This document shows positions 56,190 through 58,673 of a stretch of 64,000 bases of DNA, piece by piece. The stretch covers positions 124,001 to 188,000 of the forward strand of contig JABTUZ010000002.1 in the NCBI GenBank assembly GCA_015075105.1. The letters are read 5' to 3'. This DNA is from Leptospiraceae bacterium. Lineage in GTDB: Bacteria; Spirochaetota; Leptospiria; Leptospirales; Leptospiraceae. Under the pieces are notes generated by a model, which saw nothing but the letters and a program-made list of their open reading frames with translations, did no database searches and was not told the DNA's origin. Position numbers and translations under genes: made by a program. The first letter of the stretch is position 1. Each line of letters starts with the position of its first letter.

Positions 56190-56245
56190 TCAAAGTCTCC
56201 TTCTCCACCCCTCTTCGGGTTTTGGATCAGGGACTCCTGAAAAAC

Positions 56246-56276
56246 AAAAAACCCGCTGGAGGAAGGCGGGTTTTTA
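56246..56276 (-). terminator. Attenuator terminator in the leuA leader
   Basis: On the minus strand, AAAAACCCGC pairs with GCGGGTTTTT around a 9-nt loop (arms 56266-56275 and 56247-56256). It is followed by a U-run. It lies between the leader peptide stop and the leuA start, so it would end transcription before the gene unless prevented. Confidence 0.85.
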
Positions 56277-56294
56277 TTTTACAAAAACATCGCT

Positions 56295-56319
56295 CTTCTT
56301 CTCAAGAAGTGAGAAGAAG
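56295..56319 (-). promoter_or_regulatory. Anti-antiterminator hairpin overlapping the leucine codons
   Basis: A perfect 10-bp hairpin (CTTCTTCTCA / TGAGAAGAAG) with a 5-nt loop starts within the run of leucine codons. The 3' arm and the sequence after it can pair instead with the 5' part of the terminator (GCG and GAAG with CGC and CTTC, with one bulge). That would be the antiterminator. Confidence 0.75.
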
Positions 56320-56361
56320 GAGTAGATTGCATGCGAATTGATTGCTTTTGCAAATTTTCAT
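56302..56361 (-). CDS. Leucine-rich leader peptide of the leuA attenuator
   Basis: A 19-residue frame reads MKICKSNQFACNLLLLLTS and carries five consecutive leucine codons (CTA CTC CTT CTT CTC at 56311-56325) five codons before or within the first hairpin arm. The stop codon UGA lies at 56302-56304, in the loop-proximal part of that hairpin. It is followed by the terminator. This is the arrangement of leucine-controlled attenuation leaders such as leuL. The ribosome-binding site is weak (AGAG about 11 nt upstream). Confidence 0.85.
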   Translation of the reverse strand: MKICKSNQFACNLLLLLTS

Positions 56362-56411
56362 ATTAGTATGACTCTACAATCGGCAGAAAGGTTTTAGAAT
56401 CAACCATTTTT

Positions 56412-58634
56412 TTATTTTTTTAGGATCATTTTTTTTGTACAAGATTGAATATTTTTTGCCCCGGTAAGCACCATCGTATTTTTCAACTCAGTCGAATATT
56501 TATTCAATAAAAATTTTACACCCGTCGATCCCCCACCGACTGCATAGATGGCAATCGGGCGACCCACCAGTACTCCATCTGCACCAAGTGCTAACATTTT
56601 GAAAGTATCCATTCCGCTCCTTACTCCACCATCTACTAAAACTGGAATTCTGCCGTTTATTACCTCACAAATGGAAGGCAAGACTCTTGCAGTTCCGGGC
56701 GTGTCGTCTAAAACTCTTCCACCGTGATTGGAAACTACAATGCAATCAGCTCCGGCATCTAATGCGTGCAAAGCGTCTTCCTTAGATAAAATCCCCTTCA
56801 ATATAAAAGGGAGCTTGGTCATCTTTCTAATTTTTTCTAATTCGTTTGTGGTTCTCATAGGTGGATTTTGATTTTTCATAAGCATAGTTTTAAAGTTTAT
56901 TGCATCTATATCCATTCCGACTGCAATTGCTTTTACTCTTTCTGCTTCTGAAAATCTTTCTTTTAAAAGTCCAATGTCTGACCTTGGTTTACAAATTAAA
57001 ATTCCTTTCCCCTGAAATTTTTCTAAAGCTTTTATCATAATAGTATATTTTTCTAATGAAGCCCCGTCCCCGAGCCATCCAATACTTCCTGATTCAACAG
57101 CACCTCTAAGAATAGAGAATGCAAAATCTTCTTCCGTTACCGCAGAATTCATATTTGTAACAGCACCGGTCATTGGAGCAGTCATAATTGGTGATACGCA
57201 TTTTTCACCAAAAAATTGAAATTCAGTGTCGGCTTCTATTCCTTCGCGAATATAAGTTGGCAGAATAGAATACTCTTTGAGCGCAAAAGAATTATCCTGA
57301 AAGGTAAACATATTTCCTATCCCGCCCATACCGGGAACGCCTGACGCACAATCCGTTCCATCGCATACTTTACAAACCCAACAAATTTCCCTTCCAAATC
57401 GGTTTCTTGCATTTTGCTGAATTTCTTTTTCTGTTAGAGAAAAGGAATCATCGCTCTCGAAAGATATTATTTCTTTTGCTTTTTGGAAAATCTCTTCTGC
57501 ACTTTTTAGATCGTTGGCTGAAATAATTATATGCCCTGTCTTTTCAATGTTATTGGTTGGCTCCTTGATAATATCTCCGGGTTTATTCTGGATAAAAATT
57601 TCACACACTCCTTCTATCTTTTTTGCTTCTTCCACTCCCTTAATTGCAAGAAGTTTTCCTGAAGGAGCGAGGAGGGATCTTTCGATAGATACCTTTTTTA
57701 ATACAGGTTCAAGATTATCCGGTGTCTCGCCAAGAGCCACAAGAATAGCAGCGCGATTCAAGTTGACTCCACTCGACAATGGATAAGTAAAAGCAGACAT
57801 AAACCCTCCGGAAAGTCTTGCAGCAATCTCTCCAACTTTTACTCCTGTTTTTGTAACTTTAATATCTCCTTTTCCTGCACCTAATGTAATTCCAAGTGCT
57901 TTCATACCATTTCGCATAACGCTTTCAACTTCTTCTAATATAGAATTCGGAAGAGATGAAGGCATATTGTGTCCCATCTCTATAAAGTAGGGCTCTCTTT
58001 CAATGATCCTATCTGCAATTCCTGTCATATAAATATTTCCACCGAAAGAAAGCGCATCCACAGATAGTTCCGGCCCTTCCATATATTCTTCGAGAATCAT
58101 TTCTCCGGTTGGGCAGAATTTTTTTGCGTGCTTAAAAGCCAATTGCAACTCTTCCCTATTGGTTACTTTGATCACTCCTCTTGCACCCATATTGTCTGCG
58201 GGTTTCATTACAAGAGGAAATGAAAGAAAGTCTAACGCATCTCTCGCATCCTGAATACTCCAAATAGGATAAAATCCGGGAATAGGGACGTTATGATCTT
58301 TGAGTCGCTTTCGCATTTTTATTTTATTGGAGGCAGCTTCAGCATCCACATAACGTATCCCGGGTAAGTTTAGAGAATTGGCAACTGCGGCAACAGTCAT
58401 ACTTGCATCTGTTCCTGCCGTAATAACTGCATGGATTCCGTGTTTTTCAGAAAATCTTTTTGCCTCACGCACCATTCCTTCTACATCTTTTGTACTCATT
58501 ATGATCTGATAGTCAGAAATTTTAAACCCTAATGAGTCAGGGTTCATATCTGCGACTACGGTTTTTAAACCCATTGTCTTTGCAGTTTGAATTACAGGAA
58601 CTTGAAGTAAGCCCCCGCCAATAATAAAAATCAT
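56412..58634 (-). CDS. ATP-grasp ligase fused to an FMN-dependent alpha-hydroxy-acid dehydrogenase
   Basis: The 740-residue protein begins with a Rossmann-like preATP-grasp region (IFIIGGGLLQVPVIQTAK) and an ATP-grasp domain with PLVMKPADNMGARGV, EEYMEGPELSVDAL and VGEIAARLSGGF, to about residue 400. A Cys-rich stretch (EICWVCKVCDGTDC) leads into an FMN-binding TIM barrel with SNHGGRVLDDTPG, PVLVDGGVRSGMD and ALGADGVLVGRP, as in lactate or glycolate oxidases. ATG 58634 is chosen because the domain starts there; a TTG 8 codons earlier is possible. It follows mnmA. The combined activity is unknown. Confidence 0.83.
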   Translation of the reverse strand: MIFIIGGGLLQVPVIQTAKTMGLKTVVADMNPDSLGFKISDYQIIMSTKDVEGMVREAKRFSEKHGIHAVITAGTDASMTVAAVANSLNLPGIRYVDAEAASNKIKMRKRLKDHNVPIPGFYPIWSIQDARDALDFLSFPLVMKPADNMGARGVIKVTNREELQLAFKHAKKFCPTGEMILEEYMEGPELSVDALSFGGNIYMTGIADRIIEREPYFIEMGHNMPSSLPNSILEEVESVMRNGMKALGITLGAGKGDIKVTKTGVKVGEIAARLSGGFMSAFTYPLSSGVNLNRAAILVALGETPDNLEPVLKKVSIERSLLAPSGKLLAIKGVEEAKKIEGVCEIFIQNKPGDIIKEPTNNIEKTGHIIISANDLKSAEEIFQKAKEIISFESDDSFSLTEKEIQQNARNRFGREICWVCKVCDGTDCASGVPGMGGIGNMFTFQDNSFALKEYSILPTYIREGIEADTEFQFFGEKCVSPIMTAPMTGAVTNMNSAVTEEDFAFSILRGAVESGSIGWLGDGASLEKYTIMIKALEKFQGKGILICKPRSDIGLLKERFSEAERVKAIAVGMDIDAINFKTMLMKNQNPPMRTTNELEKIRKMTKLPFILKGILSKEDALHALDAGADCIVVSNHGGRVLDDTPGTARVLPSICEVINGRIPVLVDGGVRSGMDTFKMLALGADGVLVGRPIAIYAVGGGSTGVKFLLNKYSTELKNTMVLTGAKNIQSCTKKMILKK

Positions 58635-58673
58635 TCTTCCGCGATGTTGAAAGCTCAAAATTCTATACCGATA

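Follow-up and report, generated by a model that had tools for sequence, protein, structure and literature searches.

A predicted leucine-codon attenuator, leaderless or nearly so, before the short 2-isopropylmalate synthase gene leuA2 in Leptospirales and Fibrobacterota

The 64,000-nucleotide stretch of Leptospiraceae DNA analyzed here (the window) carries leuA2, a gene for a short 2-isopropylmalate synthase, on its minus strand, with an intergenic gap of 222 nt between it and an upstream gene of the same orientation (56412-58658). LeuA2 of the window scores 578 bits against the NCBIfam model NF042434 'IPMS_Lepto' (cut-off 500), and is thus a member of this family. The initial annotation had described an enzyme devoid of the C-terminal leucine feedback domain, and domain searches bear this out: the protein consists of HMGL-like and post-HMGL domains only, and the allosteric domain LeuA_dimer (Pfam PF08502) is absent from it, as it is from LeuA2 of relatives L001 and L009. 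The accompanying idea, that control by leucyl-tRNA supply would replace allosteric control, survives only in part. It suits the protein of the window, but the five Fibrobacterota LeuA2 that we tested all contain PF08502 (25-56 bits) and all five lie behind an attenuator of the type described below, while LeuA1 of the window's genome contains the domain (127 bits) and its gene has no such leader. There is therefore no simple trade between gaining an attenuator and losing the domain. As for the upstream gene, it encodes a 748-aa protein in which an ATP-grasp half resembling L-amino-acid ligases (LAL_C2) is fused to an FMN-dependent dehydrogenase half, a pairing that looks unusual.

The gap before leuA2 contains the elements listed in Table 1. 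A leader peptide with five consecutive leucine codons, a hairpin overlapping them and a terminator with a U-run had all been read from the letters at the outset, and all three are found again here. The terminator is missing from the list of our consensus scan, in which loops were limited to 8 nt while this one has 9 nt; direct hairpin searches recover it. The leader as a whole folds better than 200/200 dinucleotide shuffles (z = -4.8), and the region of hairpin 1:2 taken separately reaches z = -3.9. We also ran a combined detector, defined as a Leu-rich short ORF ending at most 80 nt from a GC-rich hairpin with a T-run, which was positive on only two of the 1158 tiles of the window, overlapping each other and both at the leuA2 leader, and on 0/3000 shuffled copies of this leader. 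These numbers bear on one alternative, namely that the hairpin is a constitutive terminator closing the transcript of the upstream gene, as its position and orientation would allow, and that the Leu-rich ORF is there by chance, with no regulation involved. Such a coincidence would have to explain why shuffling never reproduces the arrangement and why the window has no second site of this kind.

Table 1. Predicted elements of the leuA2 leader and the gene that follows it (window coordinates)
Feature	Position	Strand	Basis
Predicted -35 box, TTGATT	56398..56403	-	aligned with TTGACA/TTGCCA of relatives at equal spacing
Predicted -10 box, GATTGT, 16-nt spacer	56376..56381	-	GATTGT common to L008 and L009
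Leader peptide ORF, MKICKSNQFACNLLLLLTS then stop; 19 codons, ATG 56361 to TGA 56302	56302..56361	-	sequence reading, counterparts in relatives
Regulatory leucine codons in tandem, CTA CTC CTT CTT CTC	56311..56325	-	direct reading
Hairpin 1:2 (pause/protector), 10 bp, over Leu codons and stop codon; CTTCTTCTCA (56319..56310), loop CTTCT, TGAGAAGAAG (56304..56295)	56295..56319	-	folding
Antiterminator arm 2, TTGAGAAGAAGAGCGATGTTTTTG, partner 56275..56257	56282..56305	-	duplex energy
Intrinsic terminator, 10-bp hairpin (arms 3:4) and U-run; predicted as AAAAACCCGC-CTTCCTCCA-GCGGGTTTTT (56275..56247), U-run reaching 56240	56240..56275	-	direct hairpin searches
Shine-Dalgarno of leuA2, AAGGAG	56197..56202	-	direct reading
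leuA2, short 2-isopropylmalate synthase, 397 aa	54996..56189	-	NF042434 score, domain search

A feature that the initial annotation missed is the position of the promoter. The GATTGT box ends 6 nt before the leader AUG in L008 and L009, and 14 nt before it in the window, where the predicted transcription start falls at about 56369 and would leave an 8-nt 5'UTR ahead of the leader peptide. Across leaders, scoring for a sigma-70-like promoter gives a sharp peak at a distance of 6 or 7 nt between the end of the -10 box and the AUG (z = 9.9 and 9.0, respectively), and a gap of 6-7 nt is found in 30/38 loci. With such a gap the predicted transcription start falls at the leader AUG itself, so that, judging from promoter spacing, the leader is predicted to be leaderless or nearly so. 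There are precedents for this kind of start, both in the lineage of the window, with about 440 mRNAs with a 5'UTR shorter than 10 nt reported for L. interrogans (PMC5243855), and in leader peptides, since leaderless ones have been reported in Streptomyces (PMC8079986).

We then looked at how far the arrangement extends, which gave our principal result, drawing relatives of LeuA2 from a collection of 84,980 species genomes, within the order and class of the window, its phylum, and the Fibrobacterota. In the phylum of the window they occur in 7/393 genomes, all seven within its order, and in Fibrobacterota in 110 of 168 genomes (E <= 1e-140); with NF042434, members from 109 of the 168 genomes exceed 500 bits. 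Relatives lacking the Leu run or the terminator had been named beforehand as grounds for abandoning the attenuator, and both elements, a Leu-rich leader and then a terminator, are present at 7/7 Leptospirales leuA2 loci (a set that does not include the genus Leptospira itself), with the same arrangement at about 80 Fibrobacterota loci. We collected 86 leaders, three loci being cut by contig ends, and kept 38 once near-copies were removed. Their peptides differ in length and sequence, but a run of Leu is retained throughout, as in MTIKQYNLLLLLSLT, MSKAHAQLLLLGLSG and MKKTLNLLLLLQLACGARF. The exceptions are seven loci of a divergent Fibrobacterota LeuA2 group that has LRDANQ for LRDGNQ (L103, L107, L108, L109, L110, L112 and L115) and the leuA2 locus of a PVC-labelled MAG (L012), where we found no attenuator, plus one locus (L114) with a weak leader. 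Two further leuA2 frames contain one internal stop, G200 (C69:6870-8021, TAA) and G183 (C21:19669-20718, TGA), and are possible pseudogenes or assembly errors. Strong matches to a covariance model of the leader occur before leuA2 only; the top-scoring leaders belong to the training set of the model, and its informative part is the lack of strong matches anywhere else. Weaker matches elsewhere (26-42 bits) look like ordinary terminators, except for three that led us to the isoleucine leaders discussed below. In a tree of LeuA2 proteins the Leptospirales group together in 58% of bootstrap trees, and the tree does not settle the direction of a transfer between Fibrobacterota and Leptospirales. 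That the ORF, promoter spacing, antiterminator and terminator recur together before leuA2 behind different upstream genes is again difficult to reconcile with a terminator serving whichever gene lies upstream and a fortuitous ORF.

It had been suggested that the 3' arm of the first hairpin can pair with the 5' arm of the terminator, and calculation agrees: in the window, arm 2 with the terminator 5' arm and loop yields -12.8 kcal/mol, compared with a mean of -5.7 for shuffled sequences (1/200 shuffles as strong). Over the 38 non-redundant leaders, pairing of the stretch following the Leu run with the terminator 5' arm averages -15.2 kcal/mol, versus -9.2 for shuffled stretches. A consensus folding of the leader alignment (RNAalifold) recovers the terminator alone, as expected because the arms are shared by alternative pairings, and for this reason we tested covariation on arm pairs by re-pairing. 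Swapping arms 2 and 3 between loci weakens the mean energy to -12.2 (sd 0.39), and in 10,000 re-pairings the true value is never reached; at core positions of the antiterminator, C-G alternates with U-A and A-U with G-C. This is strong evidence from sequence, uncorrected for phylogeny, that arms 2 and 3 co-vary, though kinship of the sequences may supply some of the permutation signal. Hairpin 1:2 stands out in Leptospirales and less so in Fibrobacter, with a mean z of -1.2 across the 38 leaders. Since the pairing of arms 2 and 3 needs matched partners, and given the detector and the recurrence behind different neighbors, we regard an unregulated terminator with a chance ORF as very improbable.

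The position of the ribosome fits the same scheme. A modelled ribosome on the stop codon covers arm 2, and in 38/38 leaders the antiterminator then loses more than 5 kcal/mol (the median goes from -15.1 to -3.0, and the window drops to -2.7 kcal/mol), and a ribosome modelled on the Leu codons leaves the antiterminator arm free. In an equilibrium folding model the terminator beats the antiterminator in most leaders, and the switch must therefore be kinetic, decided while the RNA is being synthesized. Classical attenuators likewise choose between their structures kinetically. Cognate codon run, intrinsic terminator and an exclusive antiterminator positioned for control by the ribosome, the sequence hallmarks of leader-peptide attenuators, are thus found together. 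We consider it very likely, on the strength of the comparative evidence (86 leaders, co-variation of the arms and ribosome geometry), that the leuA2 leader is a ribosome-mediated transcription attenuator sensing charged leucyl-tRNA, which was the core of the initial reading. Transcription would start at the leader AUG or within some 8 nt of it, and the ribosome would load at the 5' end with no Shine-Dalgarno sequence. With ample Leu-tRNA it would proceed to the stop codon inside arm 2 and mask this arm, letting terminator 3:4 form. With scarce Leu-tRNA it would stall within the Leu run and so sit over arm 1, leaving arm 2 unmasked and able to pair with the terminator 5' arm before arm 4 exists, and read-through into leuA2 would follow. 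In the absence of translation, hairpin 1:2 would form and transcription would terminate. A leucine-binding riboswitch, or a terminator bound by a protein, could also account for a 5' region that is conserved, structured and equipped with a terminator; the ORF would then be incidental. However, no Rfam family matches, and conservation in the alignment is confined to the run of Leu or Ile codons and to the arms that complement each other, with nothing resembling a ligand pocket, so that we give this possibility hardly any credence at all.

A second feature overlooked initially is a sister leader with isoleucine codons. In Fibrobacterota, the gene for citramalate synthase, which opens a route to isoleucine, is preceded in 7/8 genomes by a leader built on the same scaffold with a run of Ile codons (L239, L240, L241, L242, L244, L245 and L246). 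Four of these synthase genes were tested against TIGR00977 and scored 682-690 bits. The Ile runs read, for example, ...LAIRIIITPPGSGL or ...AIIIIRITDGIGSGLA, and the antiterminator and terminator arms resemble those of leuA2 (e.g. GGGAGCGG / CCCGCTCC). We found no earlier description of Ile-codon leaders before the citramalate synthase of Fibrobacterota. The upstream regions of Leptospiria citramalate synthase genes have no such leader, and searching those of leuA1, ilvB and cimA in the window's genome gave no attenuator. The way the codon follows the product, Leu or Ile, is the best evidence at hand that the ORF acts as the sensor, as far as sequence comparison can tell. It also bears on a different explanation, in which the Leu run is a stretch of slow codons and the leader answers mainly to oxidative stress or to slower translation in general, instead of to leucine. 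Superoxide is reported to induce leuA2 more than any other gene in L. interrogans, for a cause left open and with a moonlighting role proposed, and added leucine gave no fitness benefit under paraquat (PMC12345160). But codon identity tracks the product, with Leu before leuA2 and Ile before citramalate synthase, and the paraquat fitness test did not measure read-through into leuA2; we therefore find this explanation unlikely, if somewhat less so than the other two alternatives.

Scans against Rfam 15, by gathering score and by E-value, returned no family: at the gathering score the window leader matched none, those of the Thr_leader and Phe_leader type included, and the leaders of relatives gave best matches of 27-33 bits against 55. 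The attenuator of leuLABCD in E. coli and Salmonella combines a short leader ORF with a run of Leu codons and competing antiterminator and terminator, upstream of the first enzyme of leucine synthesis. The window leader shares with this gamma-proteobacterial system the Leu run, the competing structures and the first-enzyme target, and differs from it in having leuA2 as single-gene target, in its predicted (near-)leaderless start, in the phyla where it occurs and in matching no Rfam leader at the gathering score. Leaderless, Leu-rich peptides are also known from Actinobacteria, with MRAVRLLLSEPR before leuS, accompanied by a terminator, and MRFGLLLLSCRGEGL before leuA (PMC8079986). The leader of the window resembles the branched-chain leaders of this group (LeuL and IlvL of S. 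lividans, the ilvB-II uORF of Corynebacterium) in its Leu-rich peptide and, by prediction, in being leaderless or nearly so. However, it has a standard terminator/antiterminator pair, unlike actinobacterial leuA, where the LEU pseudoknot is found but a typical terminator is not (PMC1262725, PMC8079986). Mutated codons in the Streptomyces leuA and ilvB leaders gave non-classical behavior (PMC1262725), which counts against an attenuator reading. Closer to the window, the Leptospira 'ilvB motif' was re-read in 2023 as an attenuator with a Val/BCAA-rich uORF (PMC10272879); it is alike in being a predicted BCAA-type uORF attenuator of the same lineage, and unlike in being Val-rich, placed before ilvB, and limited to seven representatives, all in Leptospira. 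The ilvB gene of the window's genome has no leader of this type. The initial impression that no attenuator had been described in Leptospirales must hence be narrowed to leuA, for which neither Rfam 15 nor the literature, as far as our incomplete coverage goes, gave a description in Leptospira or Fibrobacterota.

Probable leader-peptide attenuation of leucine synthesis, of the classical kind, is in this way placed in two phyla for which we found no described leuA attenuator, and more than 80 leader examples are available to build an RNA family model. With the Leu and Ile sister leaders, nature has in effect run a codon-swap experiment on a single RNA scaffold. If true Leptospira share the leader, a leucyl-tRNA attenuator would be a simpler cause for the induction of leuA2 by superoxide. 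One can speculate that damage to LeuA1, by cutting leucine synthesis, would open the leuA2 attenuator if L. interrogans has one, although the lack of a fitness benefit from leucine under paraquat argues against this link (PMC12345160). As a broader proposal, which we hold only tentatively and consider more doubtful than not, Leptospirales and Fibrobacterota would share, through descent or transfer, an unlisted family of leaderless, codon-swappable attenuators (Leu before leuA2, Ile before citramalate synthase), which in Leptospira would couple oxidative damage of leucine synthesis to leuA2 and account for its induction by superoxide without a redox regulator. We observed lastly that TTA and TTG make up only 2/34 Leu codons in the Leptospirales leaders, versus 51% of Leu codons in the ORFs of the window, an avoidance that could reflect either the pairing of arm 1 or codon sensitivity.
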